Shown here piece by piece: positions 19,357-35,166 of a stretch of DNA of 39,420 nucleotides. The translations under genes and the position numbers were made by a program. This stretch comes from Eubacterium sp. (GTDB lineage: Bacteria; Bacillota; Clostridia; Lachnospirales; Lachnospiraceae): positions 1 to 39,420 of the forward strand of contig JAFXZW010000006.1 in assembly GCA_017541035.1 (NCBI GenBank). The letters run 5' to 3'. The stretch's first letter is position 1. Each line of letters begins with the position of its first letter. The notes under the pieces were generated by a model. It ran no database searches. It saw only the letters and a program-made list of their open reading frames with translations, and was not told the DNA's origin.

Positions 19357-20019
19357 ATGGCTAAGGGGAAAAAGAGTTTTCTGGATTATTTTCGCGTAAG
19401 TGACGACGAAGATGATTACGATGAGGAGACCGACGATCTCTTTGATGAAGAGGATGATGATGACGATGAGGGCTTTTCCTTCCGTCGTAAGAAAAAGGAA
19501 GTAACGGCTCAGCCGCCGGAAGAACCGGCTCCGCGCCCGCAGTACAGCAGGCCTGCCGCAGCACCGGCTCCGCGTCCGGCATCATCTTATCAGCCGGCAT
19601 CTACCGCTTCCTATACACCGCGTTCAACAAAGAGCAGCAGTGCAGGGAAAAAACCCCGTCCCCGGCAGGAGGAGGATCCGGGTAAACTGGTATCCTTCGA
19701 TAATCAAAGGAGAAGAAACTTGAATCCGTCCAGTGAAGTATATGTAATCAAGCCCCAGGAATTTGATGATGCTCAGACTGTCACAGATCTGCTGAAGGGC
19801 GGGAAGACCATCGTGATCAATATGGAAGGCGTGGAGATCGATCCCGCACAACGTATTATTGACTTTATCGGTGGTGCATGCTATGGACTGGGAGGCGATC
19901 TCAGAGCCATTTCCGCAAGCATTTTCATTGCAGCGCCTCATAACATTGAGGTTTCCGGGGATCTGAGGGATGAAATCTTAAATGAGTCCACACTTTCCCC
20001 GCAGCTTGGGAAATACTGA
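19357..20019 (+). CDS. sepF: Cell division protein SepF
   Basis: SepF polymerises at the membrane and tethers FtsZ in Gram-positive bacteria. The N-terminus (MAKGKKSFLDYFRV) is the amphipathic membrane-targeting helix. It is followed by a very acidic stretch, then a Pro/Ala/Ser-rich linker (about 45-110). The C-terminal SepF/DUF552 domain (about 125-215) shows VYVIKPQEFDDAQTV, KGGKTIVINMEG, QRIIDFIGGACYGL and the IFIAAP strand. At 220 residues it is longer than Bacillus SepF (about 150) because of the linker. It lies between yggS and divIVA. Confidence 0.96.
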   Translation: MAKGKKSFLDYFRVSDDEDDYDEETDDLFDEEDDDDDEGFSFRRKKKEVTAQPPEEPAPRPQYSRPAAAPAPRPASSYQPASTASYTPRSTKSSSAGKKPRPRQEEDPGKLVSFDNQRRRNLNPSSEVYVIKPQEFDDAQTVTDLLKGGKTIVINMEGVEIDPAQRIIDFIGGACYGLGGDLRAISASIFIAAPHNIEVSGDLRDEILNESTLSPQLGKY

Positions 20020-20050
20020 TCCGTAAAGAACGGATGGATGGAGGAGAAGG

Positions 20051-20683
20051 ATGCTGACACCGGTTGATATTCAACAGAAAAAGTTCAAGACAGGACTTGG
20101 CTATAATAAAGAAGATGTAAATCAGTTTTTTCATGAGGTTTCCGTCAGCTACGAAGAGCTGTATCGTTCCAATGCGGAGCTGAAGGAAAAAGTCATTACC
20201 ATGGAGGATTCCCTGCAGCATTATAAGGCTACAGAGGAGAATCTGCAGAAGTCGCTTTTGCTGGCAGAGAAAAACTCCGAGGAATCCAAGACAAATGCGG
20301 CCCGTGAAGCGAGAAATATCGAGGCAGAGGCCAGAAGCCGCGCCAATGAGATCGTAAAAGAAGCCAGAGAGCAGCTGGCTGACATGGAAAACCGGATGAA
20401 GGAGCTTGAAATCCGGTACGCGGAATACAAGCAGAGATTTATTGATACGGCGAAAATGCATCTTGCTTATCTGGATTCCACCGACTTTGATCCTTCCGCA
20501 AAGATTTCCGACAGACGATCCTCCCGGGATGAGTCTGACAGACGGTCCGGTGATTCCGGAGGCAGCGGTCTGGGCGGAGCCGGGAGTGTCGGTGCATCCA
20601 GGGATGAACGGCGCAGCAGCGCATCCAATGTTTACGGTTCCGTTTTGGGCGGTGAGGGGATCGATCCCTTTGCCGGATTTTAA
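20051..20683 (+). CDS. divIVA: DivIVA domain protein
   Basis: DivIVA-type proteins bind strongly curved membrane at poles and septa and recruit division or wall partners. The N-terminal lipid-binding domain is recognisable in MLTPVDIQQKKF and GYNKEDVNQFFHEV. A long coiled coil runs to about residue 140, and the last 60 residues are a Ser/Gly/Arg-rich low-complexity tail. The length of 210 residues is within family range. GGAGGAGAAGG precedes the ATG, and a clear intrinsic terminator follows the stop. GpsB is shorter (about 100 residues), so DivIVA is preferred. Confidence 0.93.
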   Translation: MLTPVDIQQKKFKTGLGYNKEDVNQFFHEVSVSYEELYRSNAELKEKVITMEDSLQHYKATEENLQKSLLLAEKNSEESKTNAAREARNIEAEARSRANEIVKEAREQLADMENRMKELEIRYAEYKQRFIDTAKMHLAYLDSTDFDPSAKISDRRSSRDESDRRSGDSGGSGLGGAGSVGASRDERRSSASNVYGSVLGGEGIDPFAGF

Positions 20684-20697
20684 AAAGTATGAGGATC

Positions 20698-20726
20698 AGC
20701 ATCCATACCGGATGCTTTTTCTCTTT
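20698..20726 (+). terminator. Intrinsic terminator after divIVA
   Basis: AGCATCC (20698-20704) pairs perfectly with GGATGCT (20710-20716) across a 5-base loop and is followed by TTTTTCTCTTTT. It lies between divIVA and lspA, so lspA transcription must come from readthrough or from a promoter I cannot place. Confidence 0.8.
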
Positions 20727-20742
20727 TCATGGAGAGAGATTC

Positions 20743-21339
20743 ATGACGACAGAAAAGAAAAAATCAATCCTTTGGATGCTGATCGGATGTATCCTGATCA
20801 TTGCCGCAGATCAGCTGACAAAACAGTTGATCATTCATCATTATGCAGAGGGAGAGGGGACACCCCTGATCGAAGGAGTTTTTGAGCTGCACCATATCCA
20901 TAACTCCGGCTCAGCCTTCGGCATGCTTTCGGGAAAGACCTTCTTTCTTACTCTTTTTTCCCTGCTGCTGATCGGAGCCATCATCTATGTCCTGATCCAC
21001 ATTCTTGGGGATCCCCGTTATCGGATCCTGCGGATCATTTTTACCTGCATACTTGGCGGAGCCCTGGGAAATATGATCGACCGGATCCGCCTGGGTTATG
21101 TTACGGATTTCCTGTATTTCAAACTGATCGATTTTCCTGTCTTTAATGTGGCGGATATTTTTGTCACCCTTCCCGTAATTCTGCTCATCATTCTGCTGAT
21201 CTTCAAGTTCCGTGGAGATGATCTGGATGTCCTTTTAGGGGATAAGATCCATAATCCCGACGGAACGTATACGGAAAAGGAAAAAGGGAAAAAAGCTTCC
21301 GAAGAAGCCGATACGGAAAAAGAGGAGAAGCGTGAATGA
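20743..21339 (+). CDS. lspA: Lipoprotein signal peptidase (signal peptidase II)
   Basis: LspA is the aspartyl protease that removes signal peptides from prolipoproteins in the membrane. Four hydrophobic segments are visible. The two catalytic aspartates are Asp113 (GNMIDRI) and Asp138 (FNVADIF), with the conserved HNSGSAFGM motif nearer the N-terminus. An ATG at 20743 preceded by GAGAGAG gives 198 residues; the frame is open to 20689, but that part encodes the terminator hairpin. The C-terminal 40 residues are an unusual charged Lys/Glu-rich tail. The stop overlaps the next start (ATGA). Its substrates may include the lipoproteins at 23629 and 33421. Confidence 0.95.
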   Translation: MTTEKKKSILWMLIGCILIIAADQLTKQLIIHHYAEGEGTPLIEGVFELHHIHNSGSAFGMLSGKTFFLTLFSLLLIGAIIYVLIHILGDPRYRILRIIFTCILGGALGNMIDRIRLGYVTDFLYFKLIDFPVFNVADIFVTLPVILLIILLIFKFRGDDLDVLLGDKIHNPDGTYTEKEKGKKASEEADTEKEEKRE

Positions 21340-22250
21340 TGGAAGAAACCCTTACCCTTTTTCCGGAACCGGAGGAGACGGGGGAACGGCTGGACAAATA
21401 TCTCTCAGCGGTCCTTACCGATTATTCCCGTAGTTTTCTTTCGGGGCTGATCGCCGAAGGACGGATCACCGTTAACGGCAGTACGAAAAAGGCTTCCTAC
21501 AATCTGAAGGAGGGAGATACGGTCCAGGCCGTGATACCGGAACCGGAGCCCCTCAGGATCGAAGCAGAGCATATTCCTCTTGATATCATTTATGAAGACG
21601 GAGATATTCTGGTTGTGAATAAACCCCAGGGCATGGTTGTGCATCCTGCACCGGGGCACACCTCCGGAACTCTTGTCAATGCCTTGCTTTATCATTGTGA
21701 AGGCAGTCTTTCCGGTATTAACGGCATTTTACGACCAGGTATCGTTCACCGGATCGATAAGGATACCAGCGGACTCCTTGTGGTCTGCAAAAATGATCTG
21801 GCACACCGCAGACTGGCTGAACAGTTTGCCGTACATTCGATTACGCGGATCTATACGGCTATATGCTACGGAAAAATAAAGGAGAGCGGTACCGTGAATG
21901 CGCCCCTCGGACGGGATCCCCGGGACAGGAAAAAGGTAACGATCCTACCGAGCGGTCGTCATGCTGTTACTCATTATGAACCGGCCCTGGAATTGAAAAA
22001 GGATTTTACCCTGATTCACTGCAGACTGGAAACAGGAAGAACTCATCAGATCCGTGTCCATATGGCATCCCTCAAACATCCGATTCTCGGTGACCCGGTT
22101 TATGGGCCGGCCCATTCGCCCTTTACATTGAACGGACAGCTCCTGCATGCAGGAACGCTGGGATTCCAACATCCGGTGTCAGGTGAATATCTTGAATTTT
22201 CCAGTCCGTTGCCGGAACATTTTCAACGGATACTGAATATCCTTTCATGA
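21336..22250 (+). CDS. rluD: RluA/RluD family 23S rRNA pseudouridine synthase
   Basis: The 304-residue protein has an N-terminal S4 RNA-binding domain (about 15-75: RLDKYLSAVL, SGLIAEGRITVNG) and a pseudouridine synthase domain with catalytic Asp141 in HRIDKDTSG. Further family motifs are NKPQGMVVHPA, RTHQIRVHM and HPILGDPVYG. RluD in E. coli modifies 23S rRNA helix 69; the exact target here is inferred from the closest family. It overlaps lspA by 4 bases, a common Firmicutes pair (lspA-ylyB). Only a weak hairpin follows. Confidence 0.93.
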   Translation: MMEETLTLFPEPEETGERLDKYLSAVLTDYSRSFLSGLIAEGRITVNGSTKKASYNLKEGDTVQAVIPEPEPLRIEAEHIPLDIIYEDGDILVVNKPQGMVVHPAPGHTSGTLVNALLYHCEGSLSGINGILRPGIVHRIDKDTSGLLVVCKNDLAHRRLAEQFAVHSITRIYTAICYGKIKESGTVNAPLGRDPRDRKKVTILPSGRHAVTHYEPALELKKDFTLIHCRLETGRTHQIRVHMASLKHPILGDPVYGPAHSPFTLNGQLLHAGTLGFQHPVSGEYLEFSSPLPEHFQRILNILS

Positions 22251-22338: not shown

Positions 22339-22372
22339 ATTATTTCGTGAAACCATAGTTTTCCGAAATAAT
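22339..22372. other. dif-like Xer recombination site (difSL-type candidate)
   Basis: Two 14-bp arms, ATTATTTCGTGAAA (22339-22352) and TTTTCCGAAATAAT (22359-22372), form a dyad matching at 12 of 14 positions around a 6-bp centre, CCATAG. This is the arm-spacer-arm layout of a tyrosine recombinase core site. On the - strand the core reads GGAAAACTATGGTTTC, close to the GAAAAACTATAATTTTC core I recall for streptococcal difSL. As with difSL, it lies just upstream of a XerS-like gene, 55 bases before its start. An autoregulatory operator is the main alternative. The dyad is seen; its function as dif is inferred. Confidence 0.6.
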
Positions 22373-22384
22373 AATGTGTTTTTA

Positions 22385-22413
22385 TTGTGAATACTTTTCG
22401 TATCCGGTATATT
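22385..22413 (+). promoter_or_regulatory. Putative promoter of the XerS-like recombinase gene
   Basis: TTGTGA (22385-22390) and TATATT (22408-22413) are spaced by 17 bases, right after the dif-like dyad. The ribosome binding site GGGAGG (22414-22419) follows immediately. A start site at about 22420 would leave that site outside the RNA, so this promoter is only moderately convincing. Confidence 0.4.
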
Positions 22414-22426
22414 GGGAGGTCCTTCC

Positions 22427-23572
22427 ATGGCAAATGATTATCACAAACAGGTGGCTCGCGATCAGACGGTCCGGCTTCGGGAAATCACCGCAGAGTTACC
22501 TCCGTATGTAAGGGATTATTTTCGCAGCATTTCGGAAACAACCCAGCCCCGGACCAGAACGGCCTATGCCTATGACATTAAGCTTTTCTTCGAATTTCTG
22601 ATTGACAATAACTCTTATTTCCGTGGAAAAACCCCCAAGGATATTGATCTGGAATCTCTGAACCGCTTAACGGCCGAGGATTTTGAGGAATATCTGGATT
22701 ACCTCAGTCTTTATACAAAAAACGGCAAGGAATACACCAACAGTTCCTCGGCCAAAAAAAGAAAAATCGTTTCACTCCGGGCTTTCTTCCGGTATCTGTA
22801 TCAGACGGAACGAATTGACCAGAATGTAACCGAGAAGGTAAAAACCCCGAAAATACACGATAAAAATATTATTCGTATGGAATCGGATGAGGTGGCTAAT
22901 TTCCTCGACACTGTCGAATTCGGCAATCGGCTTACGAAAAATCAACAAAGGTTTCACGAAAAAACAAAGGTCAGGGACCTTGCCATGCTTACGCTTATGC
23001 TATCAACCGGGATTCGTGTTTCCGAATGCGTCGGGATCAATATTTCTGATGTGGATTTTGACCGGACCTCCGTCCGCGTGGTCCGAAAAGGCGGAAATGA
23101 GGATCTGGTTTATTTCTCCGATGAAGCTGCGGAAATTCTGCTGGAATATCTGGAGGAAAGGAAAAAAATCGATGCAGCGCCCGGCTCTGAGGATGCACTC
23201 TTCCTCTCCTCTCACAGGTCCCGTATGACCCAGCGAAATGTTGAGTATCTGGTGAAAAAATATGCCCGGGTTGCTACACCCTTAAAGAAAATAACGCCCC
23301 ATAAGCTTCGCAGCACCTATGGAACGGCGCTTTATCAGGAAACCGGTGACATTTATCTTGTTGCTTCCGTGCTTGGCCATAAGGATGTCAACACTACAAG
23401 AAAGCACTATGCCGACTTGGATGATCATAAGAAATGGGAATCCCGGAATGAAGTGCGGTTGCGGGAGGATGACCGGATCAGCGCCGGCATTCAGAAGGAT
23501 GACCGGATCAGTACCGGCATTCAGAAGGATGACCGGATCAGTACCGGCATTCAGAAGGATGACAAAGAATAA
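22427..23572 (+). CDS. xerS: XerS-like site-specific tyrosine recombinase
   Basis: This 381-residue recombinase has an N-terminal SAM-like DNA-binding domain (about 20-135) and a catalytic domain. The full catalytic set is visible: Arg197 (STGIRVSE), Lys221 (VRKGGNE), His292-x-x-Arg295 (TPHKLRSTYG), His318 (LGHKDVNT) and Tyr328 (RKHYADL). It is longer than XerC/XerD (about 300), and the N-terminal LPPYVRDYF and internal RDLAMLTLMLSTGIR segments resemble XerS, the single recombinase that resolves chromosome dimers in streptococci. ATG 22427 follows GGGAGGT. After the catalytic Tyr a short region leads into a 30-bp tandem repeat encoding DDRISTGIQK units. A phage integrase is less likely because no phage genes are nearby. 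Confidence 0.8.
   Translation: MANDYHKQVARDQTVRLREITAELPPYVRDYFRSISETTQPRTRTAYAYDIKLFFEFLIDNNSYFRGKTPKDIDLESLNRLTAEDFEEYLDYLSLYTKNGKEYTNSSSAKKRKIVSLRAFFRYLYQTERIDQNVTEKVKTPKIHDKNIIRMESDEVANFLDTVEFGNRLTKNQQRFHEKTKVRDLAMLTLMLSTGIRVSECVGINISDVDFDRTSVRVVRKGGNEDLVYFSDEAAEILLEYLEERKKIDAAPGSEDALFLSSHRSRMTQRNVEYLVKKYARVATPLKKITPHKLRSTYGTALYQETGDIYLVASVLGHKDVNTTRKHYADLDDHKKWESRNEVRLREDDRISAGIQKDDRISTGIQKDDRISTGIQKDDKE
23468..23563 (+). repeat. 30-bp in-frame tandem repeat at the 3' end of the recombinase gene
   Basis: Three 30-bp units start at 23468, 23498 and 23528; the second and third are identical, the first differs slightly, and six bases of a fourth follow. Each encodes ten residues (DDRIS-A/T-GIQK). 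The repeat forms the C-terminal tail after the catalytic tyrosine, so unit gain or loss would change tail length without a frameshift. Confidence 0.95.
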
Positions 23573-23573: not shown

Positions 23574-23606
23574 AAAAAATGGCGGAAACCGATTTCCGCC
23601 ATTTTT
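23574..23606. terminator. Bidirectional intrinsic terminator at the strand switch
   Basis: AAATGGCGGAAA and TTTCCGCCATTT form a perfect stem with a 4-base CCGA loop, flanked by A-runs on the left and T-runs on the right. It can therefore terminate in both directions. It lies directly after the recombinase stop and between the convergent halves of the window. Confidence 0.93.
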
Positions 23607-23628: not shown

Positions 23629-24201
23629 TTATTTCAGCTTAATACCTGAAAGAATCGCCATTGTACGGGGATCCTCCGCATTATACCAGGATGCAGAAAC
23701 GAGGATTCCCGTTTGGCCGTCCATGGAATAAACCTGAAAACAGTCCATCATGTCCATATAACGGTAGGTAACTCCGGTCCAGGTTCTACCGCCTGCCACA
23801 AAGGTGACATCTTTGGAATCCTTGTTACTCTCCTTTGAATACGCTATGCTGCTTTTACAGATTTCTTCATCTTCCAGCTGTAACAGATAAGAATGGGCAT
23901 CATTTTCTTTCAGCTGTATCCACAGAGCCTTGGGATTGTCACTTCCGGCCAGTTTCCCCGGCTCCGGCTTCATATCCGCAGGTATGAAAACCTCCGTAAA
24001 ATTCCCGTAGCTCTGGGTTTTCCCATCTATGCCGATTTCGGCTTCCGTTGTCACCTTTTCCGTCACGGCGGCCGCTATTTGAGTAGCCTCTTCCTTATTA
24101 CCGCAGCCACTGCAAAGGAGCATAGCTCCGGCAAATATCAAGTATTTCAGAGAGCTTACCGCTCTTCTTCCCTTCATTTTATTCTGTCCTTTCTTCATCA
24201 T
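23629..24201 (-). CDS. Small lipoprotein of unknown function
   Basis: The 190-residue product has a basic N-terminus, a hydrophobic segment and a lipobox-like CSGC, so it is probably lipid-anchored outside the cell after LspA cleavage. The remainder is hydrophilic, with no catalytic motif I recognise. The start could be ATG 24201, directly after the upstream stop, or ATG 24177, which has a better placed AAAGGA site and gives a more typical signal peptide. It is the last gene of a four-gene unit with the DUF4153 protein, the cytidylate-kinase-like protein and the patatin. It ends about 23 bases before the shared terminator. Confidence 0.75.
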   Translation of the reverse strand: MMKKGQNKMKGRRAVSSLKYLIFAGAMLLCSGCGNKEEATQIAAAVTEKVTTEAEIGIDGKTQSYGNFTEVFIPADMKPEPGKLAGSDNPKALWIQLKENDAHSYLLQLEDEEICKSSIAYSKESNKDSKDVTFVAGGRTWTGVTYRYMDMMDCFQVYSMDGQTGILVSASWYNAEDPRTMAILSGIKLK

Positions 24202-24203
24202 CC

Positions 24204-25979
24204 TTATTTGATAAAGAGGTAGCCCTCTAACCGCAGTTCCTTAACCTGCTTGGATATTTCCGAATAGCGGTAGGTGATCTGTGTAATGATCAGACGTCCC
24301 TCCGGAATCTCCGTAGAGAACAGCGTGGTGGGATCGATCATCTTTCCTTTTTCCTGCTCCACCATATTCCGGATCACAGAGGAAAGATCCACCTGCATCA
24401 GCTGGTTCATGCCATAGGTAAGCCGTATTTTTTTTAGGTCATCCAGACCGAGTGTTTCATCATAAACCCCGTTACGGGAAACCAGATAAAACTGAGAATA
24501 ATCACGAATCGGTATTGCCAGATGATTGGTAGGATAACCATTGGAATAATAACTGCTGAAGGACCATTCATCATACTCATCATAAGCATATCCGGAAGCA
24601 CTCGGAGTGTCCGGCATTTTTAAAAGGGACTCCAGCTGTTCACTTTTATAACTGGTTTTCAGGAATACTTCCCCGTAAATATTATGTAATAGTACCAGGC
24701 GTGCACTTTTTCCGTCGTACTGGAGCTTCGCCATGTTCTGATACTCCTCCGGTGTCCAGTCCCGGTTCAGGCTTTTCAGCTCTGTTATTTCCCTGACAAT
24801 GTCCGTCAGTCTGCTCTCCTGCGATATATCCTCCACATATTCCGCACTGGTCCATGGAAGGATGATACCGAAGAAATATACAGCCATCAGTACATAGAGC
24901 ATCCATTCATAATGTTCACTGTAGGAAATCCGGGTTTTTCTGAGCAGAATGAAAACCAGATTGACAAGCGGCTCCCAGGCAGTATAAATAAACTGAACAA
25001 TAATGAAATAAACGCCAAATACCCGAAGTGTCGTCCATCCGCAGGCATTGATGCGGAGGATGATGGCATATAGCTCCAGCAGGATAAACGGTGACACGAT
25101 ATATTTCATATACCGGATCAAAATGTTATACAGTGATTTCGGCAGATGCTTTGTAAAGGCATAGGCCATGGTCCAGATGACCACTCCGACAGAGAAAATC
25201 CCCGCGCAGAAATAAAATACCTGATTAACCGGAAAAGTCCATGTAATCACGATCCGTGCCATATAAATGTATATAACAAGGACCGCCGCCATGTAGATCG
25301 GCATCAGGGCATAGAGCACCAGTCCCTTCACAAAGCCGGAGGGACGTTCCTCTGTACGGTTCGTCAGACAGGAAAGGAAATAAGGAACGTAGACAATGGG
25401 TATCAGGAATAATTCCATACGGACGATCCAGGTACCGATCTTCAGAGGAACGATCAGCAGATCGACCATGTATAAAATGAGCAGGAAACCCAGATTCAGC
25501 ACAAGCAGGATCAGAAAGATCCGGAAGCAGGAAAAGATCATGCGCACGGCATACTGCTCAAAGGAAAGCCGGCTTTCCCGTATGATTGCAAGAAGGGAAA
25601 GGCCTGTCAGGATCAGTACATAAAATCCCATCAGGGCAATATAATAATATTTTACCAAAGTGGACTCATTATTATAGCAGACAACATCTACGATCACCCA
25701 AAGAAGAGCCAGTACTCCGGAAAGAATATAGCCTGTGATGGTGATCTCCTTGCTTTTATTGGGGCGAAGGCAGTTTTCGGTAAAGAAAACCCCTGTCAGC
25801 ATCATAATAAGAAGGATCGTCAGATACTCCTCATTTCTTGCAAATGTTATATCTGCGATATCCAGAACCAGACAATACATGCAGAGAAGAAAAACAATGG
25901 ACAGTGTTCCCACATATTTGCGAAGCACAAGCAGAATGCTGCGTTGTTCATTTTGGAAGAAGTTTTTTACTTTTCCCAT
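24204..25979 (-). CDS. DUF4153-type polytopic membrane protein
   Basis: This 591-residue protein has about ten hydrophobic segments through roughly residue 385, followed by a soluble C-terminal part of about 200 residues. The layout and local sequence resemble the DUF4153 family found in Clostridia; function is unknown. Its ATG overlaps the stop of the cytidylate-kinase-like gene (TAATG) and its stop lies next to the lipoprotein start, so the products are probably made together. The C-terminal soluble part has no recognisable enzyme motif. The assignment to DUF4153 is from memory of the family pattern and needs a profile search. Confidence 0.6.
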   Translation of the reverse strand: MGKVKNFFQNEQRSILLVLRKYVGTLSIVFLLCMYCLVLDIADITFARNEEYLTILLIMMLTGVFFTENCLRPNKSKEITITGYILSGVLALLWVIVDVVCYNNESTLVKYYYIALMGFYVLILTGLSLLAIIRESRLSFEQYAVRMIFSCFRIFLILLVLNLGFLLILYMVDLLIVPLKIGTWIVRMELFLIPIVYVPYFLSCLTNRTEERPSGFVKGLVLYALMPIYMAAVLVIYIYMARIVITWTFPVNQVFYFCAGIFSVGVVIWTMAYAFTKHLPKSLYNILIRYMKYIVSPFILLELYAIILRINACGWTTLRVFGVYFIIVQFIYTAWEPLVNLVFILLRKTRISYSEHYEWMLYVLMAVYFFGIILPWTSAEYVEDISQESRLTDIVREITELKSLNRDWTPEEYQNMAKLQYDGKSARLVLLHNIYGEVFLKTSYKSEQLESLLKMPDTPSASGYAYDEYDEWSFSSYYSNGYPTNHLAIPIRDYSQFYLVSRNGVYDETLGLDDLKKIRLTYGMNQLMQVDLSSVIRNMVEQEKGKMIDPTTLFSTEIPEGRLIITQITYRYSEISKQVKELRLEGYLFIK

Positions 25980-26608
25980 TATACTCTCCCCTGCCTTTTT
26001 TCCGCGGCCTGAATGATCAGGTCAACGACATCTCTTTTTCCAAAGGCTGCACTGTTAATGGAAAGATCATAATTATCCGCTTTTCCCCATTTTGATGAGG
26101 TATAGTAGTTATAATAAGCCGCTCTTCCCTTATCTTCCTTTTGAATCTGTTCCCGGGCCTGCTTTTCGGAAAGGGAAAAACGCTCCATAACGGTACGGGT
26201 ACGTACTTCTGTGGGGGCATATATGAACACGTTCAGAACACCGGTCTGATTCCGGAGAACATAATCCGCACAACGGCCGATGAAAACACCGGAGCCTTCA
26301 TTCGCCAGCTTTTCAATGGTATGGTAGGTGGCCATAAAAGCCTTCTGATTGAGACTCATTCCGTAGCCCTGCTGCTCATAGGAATAGGTAAAGGCATAGG
26401 GATCCATGACCACGGAATAGAGAAAGCTGTTGGAACGCTTTTCATCCATTTCATCAAGAAGATTCTCCCAAAGCCCGGACTCCTTCGCGGCCTGCTTGAT
26501 CAGTTGCTTATCATAACAGGGAATTCCCAACTGCTCGGCTACTTTTTCGCCGATGATACGTCCGTTACTTCCAAATTGCCGTCCGATGGTGATCAGTACC
26601 TTTCCCAT
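25979..26608 (-). CDS. Cytidylate kinase-like family protein
   Basis: This 209-residue protein resembles the cytidylate-kinase-like family (PF13189). The N-terminus VLITIGRQFGSNGRIIGEKVAEQLG carries a modified P-loop (GRQFGSNG rather than a classical GxxxxGKS), followed by the family's YDKQLIKQAAKESG segment. A lid-like Arg-rich region occurs near residues 135-165. Members are annotated as nucleotide kinases by fold, but their substrates are mostly unknown. It starts 3 bases after the patatin stop and overlaps the DUF4153 gene, placing it in a four-gene unit. A true CMP kinase would be expected to carry a classical P-loop. Confidence 0.85.
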   Translation of the reverse strand: MGKVLITIGRQFGSNGRIIGEKVAEQLGIPCYDKQLIKQAAKESGLWENLLDEMDEKRSNSFLYSVVMDPYAFTYSYEQQGYGMSLNQKAFMATYHTIEKLANEGSGVFIGRCADYVLRNQTGVLNVFIYAPTEVRTRTVMERFSLSEKQAREQIQKEDKGRAAYYNYYTSSKWGKADNYDLSINSAAFGKRDVVDLIIQAAEKRQGRV

Positions 26609-26611
26609 AAC

Positions 26612-27646
26612 TCAGATCCCCCATTTCTTTTCAATCTCGTTAATATAATCAAATCGACTGTTGATGTTCTTTTCCAGTTCTTCAACCTTCTTCTCATGTT
26701 CGATCTGATGAACAGCCTCCTCATAATCCCGGAGTGCCAGTGCCCTCTCCATCAGAATGGCATTTTCATCCTTCTGGATCTTGGTCCTGATGGCCCTTTT
26801 TCCGTCCTTATAGCCCAGGAGACGCTTGATTGCCTTGTCCTTATCATAGAAATTCAATGTTCCCGTGAAGATGTCCCCCAGATCATGGCTTGGATCGATC
26901 ACAATGAATTCCGCATCCGAATACTGGGGATAGGAAAAAGTTCTACCGGCCGTAAGCCCGATCACGATGAACCGGCGGATTCCCGCATCATAAAGAGGCT
27001 TGATGGGTTCATTATCCACCACGCCGCCATCCCGGTATTTCTGTCCTCTGATGTCAACCGTATCATAAACCACCGGCATCGCCGTGGAAGCCATCAGAGC
27101 CTTTCGGATCTCATCCCGGGATGCCCCGTTCAGCAGCAGATATTCCGGTACATAGCTGTCACCGACCTGGCGTGCTACTCCGCAGTAGATGGTCTTCTCG
27201 CTTCCGGAAATGGCGTTGATATCCAATTTGGTATCCATCAGCCGGTTCATTTCATCTCTGGAGAAATAGATTTTTCCGGATGCCAGCATGGCGGGATCGA
27301 TATCGAAAAGAACTCCCATATTGATCTCATCCCAGGTTTTATAAGCTTTTTCATAATCCTTCTGGATATAAAGGACGGCGTTGATCGCACCGATGGATGT
27401 TCCCGCCACTGCCTTAACGTCATCCAGTATACCTTCTTCATCCAGCGCACGAAGCACGCCGATCTGATAGGCGCCCTTTCCGCCACCTCCAGAAAGAACA
27501 AGTCCCAGATCGGATGCTTCAAAATGCGGCTTCGGTACGGAAGGCACCTCGGCCGGCAGTGGTATTATCTCAGTGGTTCCCTCCTCCGGCGGAACTTCCA
27601 GAAATGAAGTTTCCTCCGACGGAACCTCAAGATAGGAATTATCCAT
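26612..27646 (-). CDS. Patatin-like phospholipase
   Basis: This 344-residue protein has the patatin Ser-Asp dyad: the oxyanion motif GGGGKGAYQIG (about 53-63), nucleophile Ser84 in GTSIG and Asp206 in RDGG. It probably hydrolyses acyl esters of membrane lipids from the cytoplasmic side; no signal peptide is visible. The first 35 residues contain two copies of an acidic FLEVP/YLEVP-like motif, an odd low-complexity N-terminus. GGGGAGGG precedes the ATG. It is the first gene of the patatin, kinase-like, DUF4153, lipoprotein unit, which suggests a lipid- or envelope-related role. Confidence 0.92.
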   Translation of the reverse strand: MDNSYLEVPSEETSFLEVPPEEGTTEIIPLPAEVPSVPKPHFEASDLGLVLSGGGGKGAYQIGVLRALDEEGILDDVKAVAGTSIGAINAVLYIQKDYEKAYKTWDEINMGVLFDIDPAMLASGKIYFSRDEMNRLMDTKLDINAISGSEKTIYCGVARQVGDSYVPEYLLLNGASRDEIRKALMASTAMPVVYDTVDIRGQKYRDGGVVDNEPIKPLYDAGIRRFIVIGLTAGRTFSYPQYSDAEFIVIDPSHDLGDIFTGTLNFYDKDKAIKRLLGYKDGKRAIRTKIQKDENAILMERALALRDYEEAVHQIEHEKKVEELEKNINSRFDYINEIEKKWGI

Positions 27647-27707
27647 GGCAAACCCTCCCCATATTGATTACCTGTCAGTCTGACAGAAAATGTGCGACAA
27701 GGAAAAG

Positions 27708-28955
27708 TTACGGTCTTACCTGTCCATCTCCGTAGATGATAAACTTCGTTGTCGTCAGTGCAAGCAGACCCATGGGGCCTCTGGCATGCAGCTTTTGTGT
27801 GGAAATGCCGATTTCTGCACCAAAGCCGAATTCAAAGCCATCCGAAAAACGTGTGGATGCATTGACATAGACACAGGCGGAATCCACCTCCCGCAGGAAT
27901 TTCTGCGCGTTAGCATAGTCCTTCGTCAAAATGGATTCGGAATGACCGGTGCTGTATTTATTGATATGAGCAATCGCTTCATCTACATTTTCCACAATCT
28001 TTGCGGAAATGATTTTGTCCAGGTATTCTCTGCCATAGTCCTCTTCTGTCGCGGGAATGACCAGATTACTGATCTCCTGTGCCGCTTCATCGCCCCGGAT
28101 CTCACAGTCATCCTCGGCCAGATCCGCCGCGATCAGCGGGAGTACATCATCCGCGATGGCCTTATGGATCACCAGGGATTCTGCTGCGTTGCAGACTCCC
28201 AGCCTCTGCAGCTTGGCATTCCTTACGATACGGACAGCCATATCCGGATCGGCTGTTTCGTCTATATAAATGTGGCAGTTTCCGGTACCGGTTTCGATTA
28301 CGGGAACTGTGGCATTTTCAACAACGGACCGGATCAGACCGGCTCCGCCCCGGGGAATCAGGACATCCACATAACGGTTCATGCGCATCAGCTCCGTGGC
28401 TATGGCGCGATCCGTATTTTCGACCAGCTGAACACTGTCTTCGGGAACGCCCGCTTCCCGCAGGGTATCGCGGATCACACGCACAAGAACCATATTGGAG
28501 TGAATGCAGTCGCTTCCTCCCCGCAGGATCACAGCATTTCCCGCTTTAAAGGTAAGGGCAAAGGAATCCACGGTCACATTCGGACGAGACTCAAAAATGA
28601 TTCCGATCACACCCATGGGAACACGCATCTGACCGATCATAAGACCATTGGGCCGACGTTTCATGGAAAGGATCTCCCCGATGGGATCGTCCAGTGCAGC
28701 TACCTGACGCACCCCTTCCGCAATCCCCTCTATACGAGCCTCGGTCAGGCGCAGACGATCCATCAAAGCAGGAGACATACCGTTTTCCTCTCCGTGCTCC
28801 AGATCGACCTTATTGCCCTTCAGAATTTCTCCGGTGTGGGCCACAAGGGCATCTGCGATACGCAGCAGCGCGTCATTTTTTTCTTTTGAACCAAGGCGTC
28901 CCATCTCAAAGGATGCTGCTTTGGCTTTTTTTCCCATTTCCTGAAGTTCGCTCAT
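27708..28955 (-). CDS. proA: Gamma-glutamyl phosphate reductase (glutamate-5-semialdehyde dehydrogenase)
   Basis: ProA reduces gamma-glutamyl phosphate to glutamate-5-semialdehyde with NADPH, the second step of proline synthesis. The 415-residue length is typical. Family motifs include the [10 protein letters not shown] segment, LRGGSD, the cofactor-site loop IPRGGAGLI and the catalytic Cys255 in LGVCNAAES. It is downstream of proB with a formyltetrahydrofolate cyclo-ligase gene between. AGGAGAGG precedes the ATG. A short perfect dyad (27672-27686) follows the gene but lacks a U-run. Confidence 0.97.
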
Positions 28956-28970
28956 ATGATTTATCCTCTC

Positions 28971-29546
28971 CTATATGATTTGTGATTCGGTTATGATCAT
29001 CTGTGGCTGAATATCCGTTTCCTCCAGAGGGATTCCTTCTTCATCGATCTGAATGGAATATGCGGCGGCCGCGGTTGTTATAATGTACCACTCGCGGATC
29101 TCAGGTATGTACCTGTCGTAATACCCTCCTCCGTAACCAAGCCGGCAGTGCCTGCGGTCGAAGGCAAGTCCCGGCATGATCATCAGGAGTCTGCTGCCCG
29201 CAGGCATAATCTCCTGAAGAATGGGTGCAGAGAAATCCGGTTCTTCGATTCCCAGAGGATTCTTGACAAGTGTGTCTCCGGGATTAACAAGATGGAATTC
29301 CATCTGCTCTCCTTCCATTCGCGGAAGGAATAATTTCTTCCCTTCCGCCCATGTAGTTAACATAATATTTTTAAGGTCAACCTCTTTCCGAAACGCCATG
29401 TATGCAAGGATTCCATCTGACTCCCTGTATTCCGGAAGATCATGGATACGGGAACAGATTTTATCGGAAAAGGTCTTCGTTTTTTCATCGGAAAGCTGTT
29501 CCCGCAGCTTTCTGTACTTCCTTCGATACTCGTCCTTCATCCGCAT
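28971..29546 (-). CDS. 5-formyltetrahydrofolate cyclo-ligase
   Basis: This enzyme converts 5-formyl-THF to 5,10-methenyl-THF using ATP. The 191-residue protein has the N-terminal basic helix (MKDEYRRKYRKLR), the central MPGLAFD segment and the ATP/phosphate loop LGYGGGYYDRYI characteristic of the family. It begins 5 bases after the proB stop and ends 15 bases before the proA start, so it is probably co-transcribed with the proline genes even though its reaction belongs to one-carbon metabolism. Confidence 0.95.
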   Translation of the reverse strand: MRMKDEYRRKYRKLREQLSDEKTKTFSDKICSRIHDLPEYRESDGILAYMAFRKEVDLKNIMLTTWAEGKKLFLPRMEGEQMEFHLVNPGDTLVKNPLGIEEPDFSAPILQEIMPAGSRLLMIMPGLAFDRRHCRLGYGGGYYDRYIPEIREWYIITTAAAAYSIQIDEEGIPLEETDIQPQMIITESQII

Positions 29547-29551
29547 ATCAT

Positions 29552-30406
29552 CTACCGTTCCAGATATCTTTTGTTGACAATGAAATCCGTCACATCAAAG
29601 CTTTCGTCATTATGGGCAAGAAAAAGCGTGCCCTCTTCCTCTCCGTTCAGCAGTCGAAGGATGATTTCGAGATCCTCCGCATTACAGATAGCCATATCAG
29701 CACCGGAATCCGTAGCGATCCGGGCTGCGGACAGCTTGGTAGCCATACCGCCGGTTCCGTAACCGGTTCTGGTATTTTTCCCCATTTTCAGCAATTCATC
29801 ATTGATTTCCTTCACAACGGAAAGCTTCCTGGCATCGGGATTGCTCCGGGGATCATCTGTATACAGACCGTCAATATCCGTAAGAAGCACCAGCAGATCC
29901 GCATTGATCAGGGAAGCCACGATGGCGGAAAGCGTATCATTATCGCCGAACTCAATCTCCTCCGTTGCAACCGTATCATTCTCATTTACCACCGGGATCA
30001 CATCCAGATCCAGCAGCTGCTTCAATGTGTTGGTGGCATTGATCCTCCGCTCCGCATTGGAGATAACATCAAAGGTGAGAAGAACCTGTGCCGCCCGGTG
30101 ATTGTATTCCAGAAAAAGCTTCTGATACAGCATCATCAGTTCCAGCTGGCCAAGGGCTGCGCAGGCCTGAACCATGGAAAGCACTTCCGGGCGTTTCCGC
30201 AGTCCCAGTGTTTTGCAGCCTACGACGATGGCTCCGGAGGATACCAGAACCACATCTTTCCCCTGATTCTTCAGGTCACTCAGGATACGGATCAGCTTCT
30301 CGATCCGCATAAGGTCAATCTCGCCGGTTTCCTTATGAACCAGCGAACTCGAACCGATCTTAATGACGATCCTTTTTTTATTTTTCAGTTCTTCTCTTGC
30401 ACTCAT
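29552..30406 (-). CDS. proB: Glutamate 5-kinase, short form without PUA domain
   Basis: ProB phosphorylates glutamate to gamma-glutamyl phosphate, the first and usually proline-inhibited step. The amino-acid-kinase motifs are KIGSSSLV near residue 16, VSSGAIVVG near 55 and GTGGMATKLSAA near 215. The protein has 284 residues and ends soon after the kinase domain, so it lacks the C-terminal PUA domain of E. coli ProB (367 residues). Truncated forms occur in other bacteria and can be functional. The ATG follows GTGGAG. It starts about 70 bases after the preceding flavoprotein gene. Confidence 0.96.
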   Translation of the reverse strand: MSAREELKNKKRIVIKIGSSSLVHKETGEIDLMRIEKLIRILSDLKNQGKDVVLVSSGAIVVGCKTLGLRKRPEVLSMVQACAALGQLELMMLYQKLFLEYNHRAAQVLLTFDVISNAERRINATNTLKQLLDLDVIPVVNENDTVATEEIEFGDNDTLSAIVASLINADLLVLLTDIDGLYTDDPRSNPDARKLSVVKEINDELLKMGKNTRTGYGTGGMATKLSAARIATDSGADMAICNAEDLEIILRLLNGEEEGTLFLAHNDESFDVTDFIVNKRYLER

Positions 30407-30476
30407 TTTCTCTACTCCACAATATGATGTTCATTTTCCGGACGCATTTTGCCCCATACGTTCGTTGCCGAACATT

Positions 30477-32186
30477 TCATTTTTCTACATGATTACGACA
30501 TTGCATAAGAAACGATGCCACAGCCTCTGCGGTATGAATCCCGTCTACGGCTGCTGACATGATACCTCCTGCATAGCCCGCTCCTTCTCCGCAGGGGAAA
30601 ATGCCCGGATGTCCGATGGCCTGAAGGTCATCGCCCCTAAGGATCCTGACCGGTGAAGAGGTACGGCTCTCAATACCGGAGAGCACGGCATCCGGCGAAT
30701 CGAAGCCCGCAAGCTTTTCGGCAAAGGAAGGAACAGCCTCTATTATAGCACGGGAAACCTCACCGGGCAAACCGGGTCTGAGATTCGTAAAATGATACGC
30801 TCCCTTAATGGCCGGAGTCACTTCACCTGCCCTGTAAGAGGGACGGTCCTTGCAAAAATCCTCATAACGCTGAACAGGAATCTTTCCTTCACCCAGTCTG
30901 TAAAATGACCTTTCCAGCTCCTGTTGAAAATGAACCGCGGAAAAAGGATCCTCACCCGGGATATCCTCCGGAAGGATATTCACGACAAGCGCACTGTTGG
31001 AGTTCGGGCCACGCCGTCCGCTGTAGCTCATTCCGTTCACAACGATTCCTTCCTCCTCGGTGGAAGCATTGACCACATAACCTCCGGGACACATGCAGAA
31101 GGAAAAAACCGCCCTTCCTTCACTGCTGTGGAAGGTAAGCTTATAATCGGCAGCGGGAAGATTTCCCGAATCAGCTGCTTCTCCGTAGCAGTCCCTGTCA
31201 ATCCATTCCCTTGGATGTTCGATCCGAAGACCGATGGCAAAGGGCTTTTTTTCCATGGATAGACCTCTTTCATTCAGAAGGGAAAAGGTATCCCGTGCGC
31301 TGTGACCGATAGCCAGGATCACGGCAGGAGTAAGCAGGATAATTTCACTCTCCTCCTCTGATGAATTGTTCATTGAGGATTTCGGGCCGTTTTGTTTACA
31401 TAACTTTTTTATGGTTAACTGATAGACAGGAACCGACAGATGATGTGCCTTTCTTTCCTCATCCGAAAGGGGACAAATATCCGTTAACCGGTGGGAGAAT
31501 AAAATCGTTCCCCCGCAGCTTTCAATCTCCCGGCGCATATTCTCCATTACGTGGTAAAGTACATCCGTACCGATATGGGGCTTTGCGTCATAACAGATTT
31601 CCTCCGGTGCCCCGAAGCGAAAAAAGCTTTCCAGCACGAAAGCCTGGCTTCCGTCCTTATCCTTATTTCCCGTGTAAAGCTTTCCGTCGGAAAATGTACC
31701 TGCTCCGCCTTCCCCGAAGGAAACATTGCTGTTCCTGTTCAGCTTTCCGCCATTCCAGAAGGCTTCCACATCCTGCTTTCGTTCGTCTACTGCCTTGCCG
31801 CGTTCGAGAAGTATCGGGCGGAAACCTGCTCTTGCCAGCATAAGTCCTGCATAATAGCCGGCCGGACCGGTTCCCACGATAACAGGACGCAGTTCATCAG
31901 GGAAATTCGTTTCTTTTTCCTGAGGAAAACAATATTGTATGCTGCTAGTTAACATAACATTATTATTGTTAACTGATTTAAGAATTTTCCTTTCCTTTTC
32001 CTCCGAAAAGCCGAAAACCCCTGCTGTGATATGAAAATGGATCTGATCCTTTTTCCGGGCATCAAGGGAACGCCTCAGGATCCTTACCTCCGGAAGACTG
32101 CTTTGGTGCAATATTTTTTCACATCGACGGATAATATCTTTTTTTGTATGATCCACCGGGAGTTTTAAATTCTGTATTCTGATCAT
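30477..32186 (-). CDS. FAD-dependent dehydrogenase of the COG2509 type
   Basis: The 569-residue protein has an N-terminal region of about 100 residues without a known catalytic motif, then a Rossmann dinucleotide motif VGTGPAGYYAGLMLARAG with acidic Glu in LLERGK near residues 105-135. It also shows a SFGEGGAGTFSDGKL segment, a typical HSARDTF motif and a C-terminal GEGAGYAGGIMSAAVDGI FAD-binding end. These features match the uncharacterised FAD-dependent dehydrogenases grouped as COG2509. The substrate is unknown. It starts 11 bases after the next flavoprotein gene, so two flavoprotein genes are paired. Confidence 0.88.
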   Translation of the reverse strand: MIRIQNLKLPVDHTKKDIIRRCEKILHQSSLPEVRILRRSLDARKKDQIHFHITAGVFGFSEEKERKILKSVNNNNVMLTSSIQYCFPQEKETNFPDELRPVIVGTGPAGYYAGLMLARAGFRPILLERGKAVDERKQDVEAFWNGGKLNRNSNVSFGEGGAGTFSDGKLYTGNKDKDGSQAFVLESFFRFGAPEEICYDAKPHIGTDVLYHVMENMRREIESCGGTILFSHRLTDICPLSDEERKAHHLSVPVYQLTIKKLCKQNGPKSSMNNSSEEESEIILLTPAVILAIGHSARDTFSLLNERGLSMEKKPFAIGLRIEHPREWIDRDCYGEAADSGNLPAADYKLTFHSSEGRAVFSFCMCPGGYVVNASTEEEGIVVNGMSYSGRRGPNSNSALVVNILPEDIPGEDPFSAVHFQQELERSFYRLGEGKIPVQRYEDFCKDRPSYRAGEVTPAIKGAYHFTNLRPGLPGEVSRAIIEAVPSFAEKLAGFDSPDAVLSGIESRTSSPVRILRGDDLQAIGHPGIFPCGEGAGYAGGIMSAAVDGIHTAEAVASFLMQCRNHVEK

Positions 32187-32197
32187 ACCGTTATCCC

Positions 32198-33424
32198 TTA
32201 TATTCTCTGTCCTGCCCGGATTCCGCTGATCAGAGCAAACATTAGGTTATACCCACCGCATCGGCCGGTCACATGGCACATTTCACCGGTCACAGCGATC
32301 CTTCTGTCCCGCTTTACCTGCATGGTATTGGGATCCAGAATGTGTGTCAGTACACCGCCCCGGTTAGCCTGGGCCATATCAGCCCTCTTTCCGGTGATCC
32401 TCAGCCGCCAGTCCTTCAGGTTCCGGATCAGAAGCAACAATTCTTCATCCGTAAAAGCCGCCAGCTTTTTCTTCAAGGACTCTTCGCCGAAGCATTTCGT
32501 AAGAAAAAAGCTGCAGAGTTTTTCATGAAGCATACCGTTGCAGGCCGCGAACAGCCTGCGTTCGGGATTTTGAGCCTTAAGAAACCGCAGGACCTCTTCT
32601 TCCTGATTCCAGAGAGGAAGAAGATCAATGGCGATTTCCTCCCCGACCTCCGCCAGTGTGGAAATATTAAAGACTGCAATGCCGGAAATACCGTAATCCG
32701 TGATCTGCAGTTCTCCCGTTTCCGTAAGCTTCCCCTCCGAGGATGGTTGATCCATGGCGAGACCAAGCCGCAGACGGGCCTTTACCCTGACCCCAGCCAG
32801 CGGACTTACATCCTCATTTGTGACCAGAGGACAAAGCGCCGGTGTAAACTCTTCATAGGGAAGGGAGAGATCGTTTATTATGTCATACAACCGTTCTTCC
32901 CTGGCAGCCCCCAGCTCCTGTGCGGCCGGACTTCCCATGGACAGGACCAGTCTGTTACAGCGGATCTTTTTATCCGTGAGGGTAAGAAGAAACCCTCCTT
33001 CCTCCGTGCGGGCTGCATGAAGGACCTCTTCTTCGCAGAGGACAGGTACATTCTGCAGCTTAACGGCATCCGTCAAAGCCCAGACTACGGATGATGCCTG
33101 CAAACTCTGGGGATAATAATAACCATTCTTTTCCACAAGAGGAATCCCGAGCTGCTCCAGATAGGATAACAGTTGGGACACAGCTCCTTCCGAAACAACT
33201 TCCTGGGCGAAGCGGTCATAGTAATAGGCAGAAGCAGAAATAACGGCATTTGCCACATTGCATCTGCCGTTACCCGTTGCATAAAGCTTTCGTCCGCTTT
33301 TTTTATTCTTTTCGATAAGGAGGACATCATACCCTCTTTTTGCAAGTTCGGACGCGCAGACGAGACCGGAGGCACCGGCTCCGATCACACAGGCGTCATA
33401 GATTCTTACTTCCGGAAGCTTCAT
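32198..33424 (-). CDS. BaiN/HI0933-type flavoprotein (NAD(P)/FAD-dependent oxidoreductase)
   Basis: The 408-residue protein starts with a FAD-binding GAGASGLVCASELAKRG motif and the family signature KSGRKLYATGNGRCNVAN. The C-terminal part has RGGVLTHILDPNTMQ and the conserved CGGYNLMFAL end. It fits the HI0933-like (YhiN/BaiN) family, whose cellular role is mostly unknown; a bile acid 7-dehydroxylation link in some gut Clostridia cannot be assumed here. The start ATG overlaps the upstream yerB stop (ATGA), with AGGAGG as ribosome binding site. Confidence 0.9.
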   Translation of the reverse strand: MKLPEVRIYDACVIGAGASGLVCASELAKRGYDVLLIEKNKKSGRKLYATGNGRCNVANAVISASAYYYDRFAQEVVSEGAVSQLLSYLEQLGIPLVEKNGYYYPQSLQASSVVWALTDAVKLQNVPVLCEEEVLHAARTEEGGFLLTLTDKKIRCNRLVLSMGSPAAQELGAAREERLYDIINDLSLPYEEFTPALCPLVTNEDVSPLAGVRVKARLRLGLAMDQPSSEGKLTETGELQITDYGISGIAVFNISTLAEVGEEIAIDLLPLWNQEEEVLRFLKAQNPERRLFAACNGMLHEKLCSFFLTKCFGEESLKKKLAAFTDEELLLLIRNLKDWRLRITGKRADMAQANRGGVLTHILDPNTMQVKRDRRIAVTGEMCHVTGRCGGYNLMFALISGIRAGQRI

Positions 33425-34548
33425 TGCTCCTCCTGTTCTTCAGCTTGCTTTGCTTCAAAGAGAACACCTTCCTTATTAGTGTCCTTGTATACGGAGATCC
33501 AGGTCTTTCCCGGATTCATCTTCAGTTCCTCCCCGTTCAGGCGGTACCAACGGGTGGTATAATTCTCATTCTTCCATGTGACGGGAATCATCTTTCCTGC
33601 CGTACAGTAATAGCCTTCACCGGAGCCGCTCCAGTCAATATCTTGACTTCCCGCATTTTCATAGCCGGGAAGATCCGAATAATGAACAAACTGGATCAGA
33701 ATATTCGTTGCAAACAGCTGCCAGCGATTCTCGTAATCCACCTGTTCGTCGCCGAACTGATAACGGTAGTACACCCTGTCATCCTCGTAATACTCGAACC
33801 ACGGACGGTTATTGGAAAAAGGTATGGTTACAATTTCGGCCACACTTCCGTCAAGCTCGGTAAATTCCTCCAGGAACTTATGATTTTCCTGATAATAGGA
33901 ACGGTGTGTCCTGCTGAAGCCCTTCCTGTTAATCTCGCTGTCAATGTCGGAGGGCAGCGTGTAGGCATTATGCGGTGCATAACGCGTATCATCCCTACGA
34001 AGACCGGGATCACTGATCAGATCAATAAAATCGAGATACGGATAATGATTCTGGTAGAGATCATTTTCATTGGCATAATCCGACGCCCCACAGAAGACAT
34101 GAATCGCATCATACTCCACGGCCTTCCGGTCATAGTAATGCCGGTCGGAACGAATAGGTTCAAACTTCTCCACCTTGTCATATTCGGTGAAAATGGCCAT
34201 CAGACGGGTAATTCCGCCCTCTGTATACATCTCATAAATGATATCCGCATGGGTCATTCCGTACTGCGGGTTTGCCAGACTGGTATTTTCATACTGTACG
34301 GCAATGGGGCGCTGATACATGTATTTCACATCAATCCATCGTCCCGTCAGAGGATTTCTGAATTCACCGTCTCTGGTGATCGTTAAAGCCTTGGGATCCT
34401 TCATTCTTGCCGTTTCACTGACACTGAGATCAGCAGGCGGAAACTGGGTATCCTCCTGATCCCCGCCACTTTTCCCGCATCCGGCAAGCAGAAATGCCGC
34501 CGTGAGGATCATCGCTGCGGCTTTATATTTTAACCTGAATTTTATCAT
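33421..34548 (-). CDS. yerB: DUF3048 lipoprotein (YerB-like)
   Basis: The 375-residue product carries a lipoprotein signal peptide ending in the lipobox LLAGC, so the mature protein is lipid-anchored outside the membrane. It then matches DUF3048/YerB: NPLTGRWID, RPIAVQYEN, GMTHADIIYEMYTEGGITR and PIRSDRHYYDRKAVEYD in the N-terminal domain, and a C-terminal domain ending in WKNENYTTRWYRLNGEELKMNPGKTW-like sequence. The function of the family is unknown. It overlaps ybeY by 4 bases upstream and the flavoprotein gene by 4 bases downstream. Confidence 0.92.
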   Translation of the reverse strand: MIKFRLKYKAAAMILTAAFLLAGCGKSGGDQEDTQFPPADLSVSETARMKDPKALTITRDGEFRNPLTGRWIDVKYMYQRPIAVQYENTSLANPQYGMTHADIIYEMYTEGGITRLMAIFTEYDKVEKFEPIRSDRHYYDRKAVEYDAIHVFCGASDYANENDLYQNHYPYLDFIDLISDPGLRRDDTRYAPHNAYTLPSDIDSEINRKGFSRTHRSYYQENHKFLEEFTELDGSVAEIVTIPFSNNRPWFEYYEDDRVYYRYQFGDEQVDYENRWQLFATNILIQFVHYSDLPGYENAGSQDIDWSGSGEGYYCTAGKMIPVTWKNENYTTRWYRLNGEELKMNPGKTWISVYKDTNKEGVLFEAKQAEEQEEQ

Positions 34549-35054: not shown

Positions 35055-35166
35055 AAATGTCCCCTTCCGTGTGATTTCCAACGTCAAATCCACAGCAGTA
35101 CGAAATATGTCATTCTGCAGCCGGGAGGCCGCAGCATATTTATGATATACGCAGATAATTACGCTT

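Follow-up and report, generated by a model that had tools for sequence, protein, structure and literature searches.

A dif-type site with an adjacent XerS-like recombinase at the replication terminus of a Eubacterium chromosome, a probable single-recombinase system in Lachnospiraceae

The question raised by this locus is whether a clostridial chromosome is freed from its dimers by one long recombinase acting at a site beside its own gene, in the manner of XerS and difSL. It arose in the window, by which we mean the whole stretch of 39,420 nucleotides that was analysed (contig JAFXZW010000006.1 of assembly GCA_017541035.1, Eubacterium sp., family Lachnospiraceae), where an initial annotation had proposed a single-recombinase module consisting of a dyad and a recombinase gene (Table 1). 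XerS/difSL is known from streptococci and lactococci, and in the accessible part of a 2017 review its site is described as 31 bp long, the unequal arms, one of which has an extra base, being set around a centre of 11 bp (PMC5357621). The initial reading is upheld in the main by the results presented below, from which we consider it very likely that the site and the gene of the window form a chromosome dimer resolution module, probably with a single recombinase, that works like XerS/difSL.

Table 1. Features at the locus, with positions counted in the window
Feature	Position	Strand	Basis or remark
sepF, divIVA, lspA and RluA-family pseudouridine synthase genes	19357-22250	+	directly before the site
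dif-type recombination site (dyad ATTATTTCGTGAAACCATAGTTTTCCGAAATAAT)	22339-22372	+	sequence, conservation, terminus position
core of the dyad site, TTCGTGAAACCATAGTTTTCCGAA	22344-22367	+	24 bp
XerS-like tyrosine recombinase, 381 aa	22427-23572	+	frame, NCBIfam/Pfam, alignment, tree
30-bp in-frame tandem repeat, 3.3 copies, peptide DDRISTGIQK	23466-23563	+	C-terminus of the recombinase
terminator-like hairpin, called on the - strand	23575-23606	.	between convergent genes
block of - frames past the recombinase	23629-39407	-	8 of 10 scanned frames (25982-34548) with a Pfam match; beyond these, frame list only

The dyad site and the recombinase gene

The 34-bp inverted repeat of the initial annotation was recovered in a scan of the window, with 12 of 14 arm positions paired round a 6-bp centre (a second scan returned these arms in a different register), and it lies directly upstream of the gene as proposed, 54 bases rather than 55 separating its end from the ATG. 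Dyads of this grade (12/14 with a 6-bp centre) numbered three in the window versus one in total over 10 mononucleotide shuffles, and an Rfam search of the window gave no match. The dyad taken alone is not far beyond chance, and conservation is decisive: the dyad is credible beyond chance because its core is conserved while its flanks vary. Across 29 of the 30 genus loci (one was dropped for its short flank), each column of the 24-bp core carried 1.88 bits of information on average, versus 0.28 and 0.36 in the 50-bp flanks, and the 6-bp centre was almost invariant. When up to 3 mismatches were allowed, the core was found in 41 of 61 genus genomes, in single copy in every one of them and never twice, versus one match of the reversed control over all 61. 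The surveyed genomes differ in completeness; the core was present in 27 of the 31 genomes of good quality (completeness of 90% or more, contamination of 5% or less), and the 20 genomes from which it was absent at this threshold include the other 4 of the 31.

The site and the gene were paired on one contig in 37 genomes. The site lies 44 to 427 bp before the gene match in 33 of these and 1.2 to 3.6 kb from it in the remaining four, the distances being counted up to the point where the gene match begins and not to the start codon. In two of the four site-bearing genomes that were not paired, G039 and G049, the gene begins on the contig of the site, 223 and 93 bp off. On the point, raised in the initial annotation, of whether the dyad is lost where the gene is kept, the site occurs once in each of the 41 genomes, and some gene-bearing genomes, such as G031 and G053, have no core at 3 mismatches.

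The start of the recombinase was placed at the ATG at 22427 (381 aa, with GGGAGG upstream), which was judged likelier than the TTG at 22412 (386 aa). The protein matches the tyrosine recombinase family of Pfam (PF00589, 121 bits), and the R-K-H-R-H-Y set noted initially is complete, with R197, K221, H292, R295, H318, and Y328 invariant in an alignment of 31 rows including the window protein. The DDRISTGIQK repeat is missing from the other 30 rows. The best NCBIfam model is that of XerS (NF003462, 219.2-219.3 bits, profile positions 8-356 of 360), the XerA, XerC, and XerD models trailing at 169-173 bits, and all 31 alignment rows match the XerS model. The window protein falls short of the curated cut-off of NF003462 (267 bits), which is reached in none of 298 family genomes among the matches listed, and which three plasmid XerS proteins exceed with 419.8-456.7 bits. 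Among structures in the PDB, the match to XerH (5jjv, 2.5e-12) is weaker than that to XerD (1a0p, 2.8e-23). Of 16 named loci, the 14 closest belong to Lachnospiraceae, Eubacterium, or an uncultured Clostridiales, and the recombinases of Eubacterium ruminantium strains are 64-66% identical to that of the window.

The tree of tyrosine recombinases that the initial annotation had called for comprised 79 rows and was built by a quick method with SH-aLRT support and long branches flagged; it took 16 of the 31 alignment rows, skipped 3 candidate rows that had no usable frame, and left out streptococcal chromosomal XerS and XerH. In this tree, 27 clostridial proteins form one set (support 98), which lies inside a 47-row set (support 97) together with five NCBI-named plasmid XerS proteins (support 96) and other long recombinases. 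The XerD- and XerC-type rows fall outside the 47-row set, and the window protein is thereby grouped with NCBI XerS and apart from XerC/XerD. As judged by model scores, the recombinase is XerS-like and is no member of the curated XerS family. The initial assignment is thus upheld by the best model and by the clade shared with named XerS proteins, and is qualified by a score below the cut-off and by a clostridial clade of its own.

Position of the site at the replication terminus

The cumulative GC skew of the window peaks at about 21-24 kb, the skew being mainly positive before the site and the gene and mainly negative after them. Among the scanned genes with a Pfam match, 7 of 7 from 17131 to the recombinase are on the forward strand and 8 of 8 from 25982 to 34548 are on the reverse strand, and the frame list hints at the same pattern of polarity farther out in the window. 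The two reverse-strand frames beside the recombinase (190 aa, 23629-24201, and 591 aa, 24204-25979) had no Pfam match. Elsewhere in the window, a 27-bp tandem repeat of 4.7 copies (6226-6379) lies within a 713-aa frame (5104-7245).

The same switch was observed on a larger scale. In G006, a single contig of 3.86 Mb, the site is at 3,689,909 and the skew changes sign between the bins at 3,689 and 3,690 kb, and in G004, a single contig of 3.19 Mb, the site is at 183,189 and the sign changes between the bins at 182 and 183 kb, with the exception of one positive 1-kb bin at 187 kb. When sampled round the chromosome, both genomes showed one skew sign per replichore, and the flip was located no more than about 1 kb from the site. 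In the genus, where loci were available for 30 of the 41 sites and 3 of the 30 were too short, the skew before the site exceeded that after it in 26 of 27 loci. The terminus-type skew, higher before the site, was also found in 23 of 27 loci of the wider family (3 of 30 again being too short), and in 17 of 18 of those in which the outer 8 bp are also paired at five or more positions.

Three genomes, G020, G022, and G029, separate the site from the gene, since 1.2-3.6 kb of other genes lie between the site and the recombinase gene. In all three, the forward-strand genes stop at the site, reverse-strand genes come next, and the forward-strand recombinase gene follows; in G047, the stretch from the site to the gene conforms to this order, and the contig does not cover the opposite flank. 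The polarity flips at the site despite the intervening genes, and therefore it is the site, not the gene, that marks the switch. The intervals of G022, G020, and G029 (loci L286, L287, and L288) encode proteins with Uma2, Big_2, or Cthe_2159 domains. Putative nucleases of the Uma2 type, a few of them with HTH domains, were met again and again in these intervals, and the spot may therefore be one where genes are taken up repeatedly.

These observations bear on whether the dyad might serve the recombinase gene as an operator or promoter and not be a recombination site. Such a role would suit a dyad that precedes the ATG by 54 bp and shares bases with a weak promoter-like match, but promoter-like matches number 3 versus 2.9 in shuffles. 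In 4 of 37 genomes, 1.2-3.6 kb separate the site from the gene, and in G026, a member of the paired set, the site is inverted. Furthermore, skew and gene polarity flip at the site and not at the gene, and 19 of 30 site loci in the wider family lack a XerS-like gene in the surrounding 1.5 kb or so. A purely regulatory role of the dyad is therefore very improbable. It is even harder to regard the pair as an integrase and the attachment site of a mobile element lodged in the terminus. Related tyrosine recombinases do occur on plasmids too (504 records), but no second copy of the site was found in the 41 site-bearing genus genomes, cell-division genes adjoin the site, and no mobile-element family was detected among the scanned window proteins except the recombinase itself. 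A dif-type site with an adjacent recombinase, located at the terminus, is real.

Some records of plasmids and phages were also inspected. A phage-borne XerS was considered for MT835478 and MT835555 (about 51% identity), and no phage claim is made, the stretch read from MT835478 holding, to judge by its translations, bacterial genes. The end of this record (L190, MT835478.1 89802-102279, 'Bacteriophage sp.') reads as bacterial chromosome, with a site of the family type, a XerS-like gene, and, by reading of the translations, sepF, lspA, and a pseudouridine synthase gene. The Butyrivibrio proteoclasticus plasmids pCY360 and pCY186 (L188 and L189) each carry a long XerS-like recombinase of their own, annotated merely as tyrosine-type, with no exact family motif within about 2.5 kb.

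Distribution in the family and relation to known Xer systems

For the survey of the wider family, a generalised motif, TTCGNNAAA-N6-TTTNNCGAA, was derived from sites in other Lachnospiraceae; it replaced a generic scan for the best dyad, which often chose other hairpins. With zero mismatches, the motif was found in 160 of 298 Lachnospiraceae genomes, as compared with 41 of 298 (52 matches) for the reversed pattern, and 145 of the 160 carry exactly one copy. Part of the family matches must be background because the reversed control matches in 41 genomes, and the exact motif is missing from 138 of the 298. In the wider family, only 11 of 30 site loci have a XerS-like gene at a distance of up to about 1.5 kb, and the linkage is therefore looser than in the genus. 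Adjacency of site and gene thus applies to the genus, with 33 of 37 paired genomes below 500 bp, and to a smaller part of the wider family.

In at least 144 of the 298 family genomes, the XerS model was matched over almost its whole length; beyond these, a match to this model can also be a protein of the XerC/D type. Outside that list, G067, G126, and G160 encode a relative, about 53% identical, beside the site. In a sample of 98 genomes of the class, a search with our own alignment detected a close relative in 16 (at least 444 bits), 3 of which are family members including the window genome, a distant relative in 10 (215-253 bits), and none in 72 at an E-value of 1e-60. The motif with at most 1 mismatch was found within 1.5 kb at 4 of 15 loci of close relatives (L194-L208, the window's own being excluded) and at 1 of 10 loci of distant relatives, as compared with 0.002 per locus in shuffles. 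The proposal that such a pair in Clostridia would extend the XerS-type system is borne out in that the pair is widespread in the family and not peculiar to one genome. From the matches to the motif, a site system with a symmetric spacing plan of its own is common in Lachnospiraceae.

The two arms of the sites tend to differ. A C at position 5 in one arm and not in the other was seen in 53 of 69 unique family sites (34 expected from base frequency), and the inner arms were identical in 3 sites (10.5 expected); these figures refer to 75 listed sites (69 unique), which are a part of all sites, include some background, and come partly from related genomes that are not independent. The window site has TG and GA at those arm positions, which fits the difference between arms and not the C rule. 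Provided that both arms are bound by one protein, the order of strand exchange may be set by this difference.

When compared with XerS/difSL as described in the accessible part of the review (PMC5357621), the locus is alike in having one long recombinase (348-381 aa, as compared with 356 aa in the published system), a gene adjoining the site, and a location at the terminus. Of the difSL site, for which the published arms alone were compared, the left arm TTTCCGAAAA matches the window site at 9 of 10 positions and the right arm TTTTCTTGAAA at 8 of 11, on the reverse complement (PMC5357621). An arm match sum of at least 17 was reached in 30 of 5000 shuffles, and the forward strand gave 9 and 9 with the order of the arms swapped. 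In contrast to difSL as the available text presents it, the site here has AAA-N6-TTT with equal spacing of the half-sites round 6 bp, in the genus and in the family (PMC5357621). The difSL-like core proposed initially therefore holds for the arms and not for the spacing. Unlike in XerS/difSL, moreover, the protein here scores below the XerS cut-off and belongs to its own clade, and a XerD is also encoded.

Other systems share some of these traits. The difH sites described for Campylobacter and Helicobacter (PMC2731167, consulted in part) go with a single long recombinase that is often beside its own site and with an AAA-N6-TTT core, as here, but the outer arms differ: in comparisons with 5 of the 12 listed difH sites, 25, 38, 43, 430, and 658 of 2000 shuffles were as good. 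The plasmid XerS proteins of Bacillaceae (Niallia, Bacillus badius, and Peribacillus) are in the same larger clade and have like sites just upstream, whereas they are 31-33% identical to the window protein and the two that were scored exceed the XerS cut-off. Such a site just upstream was found at 3 of 5 NCBI-named plasmid xerS loci, with 1, 1, and 2 mismatches to the motif, and was not found at the Lactococcus and Paenibacillus peoriae plasmid XerS loci or at 4 of 4 other long plasmid recombinases. In a Bacillus cereus mobile element, a difSL-like site occurs with an integrase of the XerS superfamily, according to the portion of the report available, a setting that differs from the terminus site here (PMC4876114). 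XerS has been placed within a broad Xer subgroup (PMC8138268, available in part), and dif has been predicted in XerC/XerD genomes by a study that, in its accessible part, lists XerC, XerD, and XerS together in Lactobacillus helveticus (PMC3025954). A literature search, most subscription papers being outside its reach, returned no description of a system such as the present one and no paper joining 'XerS' and 'Lachnospiraceae'.

One recombinase or two

The initial annotation proposed a single-recombinase system and pointed to a XerC/XerD pair with a canonical dif as the contrary case. The window genome, a draft of 139 contigs that is 95% complete, contains eight Phage_integrase matches, namely the recombinase, one XerD (332.7 bits versus a cut-off of 329.6), and six others in three frames of 370-398 aa and three of 97-180 aa. 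The neighbours of the XerD gene are genes that we take, by reading their translations, to be a NUDIX gene and aroC. When searched with the XerC model at 1e-50, the window genome returned the XerD protein as its sole match, and no XerC was found. One XerD and no second protein of the XerC type were thus found in this draft; the proposal of a single-recombinase system is favoured by the lack of a detected XerC and weakened by the presence of XerD, and we infer from the anatomy and distribution of the pair, rather than observe, that the enzyme acts alone. In a pattern search for canonical dif, the matches did not exceed the frequency of the reversed control, even in clostridial genomes chosen as positive controls. 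The likeness to XerC/XerD-dif includes a site at the terminus, a tyrosine recombinase, and the FtsK gamma domain, which was over the cut-off in 8 of 8 genomes including that of the window. The differences are the lack of a detected XerC, a terminus dyad without a XerD half-site, the separate clade, and a window protein that exceeds the XerD of its own genome by 83 aa.

The family offers a broader comparison. By our own count over 50 family genomes, the XerC model gave at least 230 bits in 28, a doubtful match (about 196 bits) in 2, and less than 190 bits in 20; a frame of XerS length was present in 15 or more of these 20. With the same model at 1e-50, no match was obtained in 4 of 8 class genomes with a close relative (G403, G358, G406, and G360). 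Several clostridial relatives instead have two or more proteins of the XerC/D type. Single-enzyme action is favoured mainly because many genomes that bear the XerS-like protein have no strong XerC-model match.

These data have to be weighed against a two-enzyme variant, in which the XerS-like protein replaces XerC and partners a XerD encoded elsewhere. A full XerD is indeed encoded in the window genome, a second Xer-type match (70-91 bits, frame length about 290-340 aa) was counted by us in 53 of 61 genus genomes as a candidate of the XerD type, the arms of the sites are seldom identical (3 of 69, as given above), and a dyad with XerD-type arms is present within the window. However, both arms of the terminus site share the TTCG..AAA core and neither carries the TTATGT of the XerD arm, and the 20 of 50 family genomes without a XerC-model match of at least 190 bits include the 15 or more with a XerS-length frame. 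We therefore regard a partnership with XerD as improbable, although less so than the regulatory or mobile-element alternatives.

The XerD-armed dyad is a 28-bp sequence at 31947-31974 (reverse strand), 9.6 kb past the site, with 9 of 11 positions paired, and it sits within a frame for a FAD-dependent protein; the best such dyad within 19 kb round the terminus of G004 and G006 has 6 of 11 positions paired. Three XerD-type half-sites (TTATGTWAACW, reverse strand) were noted in the window, at 29355-29366, 31393-31403, and 31947-31974 (this last one belonging to the 28-bp dyad), within a span of 2.6 kb that lies 7-10 kb past the site. These half-sites are possible XerD binding sites, as judged from their sequence. 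In the window genome (G000), TTATGTWAACW occurred 15 times versus 2 for the control, 3 of the 15 being in the window. Over the four genomes to which this comparison extends, the counts were 15 versus 2, 44 versus 23, and 25 versus 9 in the three with a XerD-type protein and 1 versus 8 in G086, a genome in which the XerC model matched nothing at 1e-50. Of 11 genomes, 5 contained the exact 12-mer ATTATGTTAACT. Clustering of XerD half-sites at the terminus was considered and dropped: the nearest in G006 is at 3,376,815 versus a site at 3,689,909, and G004 has one 1.4 kb off.

For the single-recombinase module, the following course of events would apply. The dyad would be the dif site at the replication terminus, and copies of the XerS-like recombinase would bind its two similar half-sites (TTCGnnAAA and its mirror image) round the 6-bp centre. 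A chromosome dimer would bring two sites together at the division septum, where strand exchange would presumably be started by FtsK, and the dimer would then be resolved into monomers. Binding of the protein to the site, its sole action, and control by FtsK are parts that we infer. The XerS score below the cut-off, the encoded XerD, the XerD-armed dyad at 31947-31974, and the absence of the core from 20 of 61 genus genomes count against this reading, as do the 138 family genomes that lack an exact motif, the looser linkage in the wider family, and the plasmid recombinase loci that have no like site.

The same type of site and the same type of enzyme recur across the family, and therefore one enzyme, and not the usual two, may separate doubled chromosomes in these bacteria. 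XerD of Bacillus subtilis has been reported to unload SMC from DNA (PMC8669397 and PMC13342612, each available in part). As a tentative and rather doubtful extension, Lachnospiraceae and some other clostridial families might rely on a single XerS-like enzyme, with half-sites kept different for strand order, and XerD, without XerC or dif, might have been freed for other tasks such as the removal of SMC. It has been asked, in the accessible part of the 2017 review, whether single recombinases arose from XerC/XerD or the reverse (PMC5357621). A XerS-like system in a main gut family, with some genomes that also have XerD and others without a strong match of the XerC/D type, offers a natural series for this question of origin. 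In addition, the site provides an exact marker of the terminus for many draft genomes.
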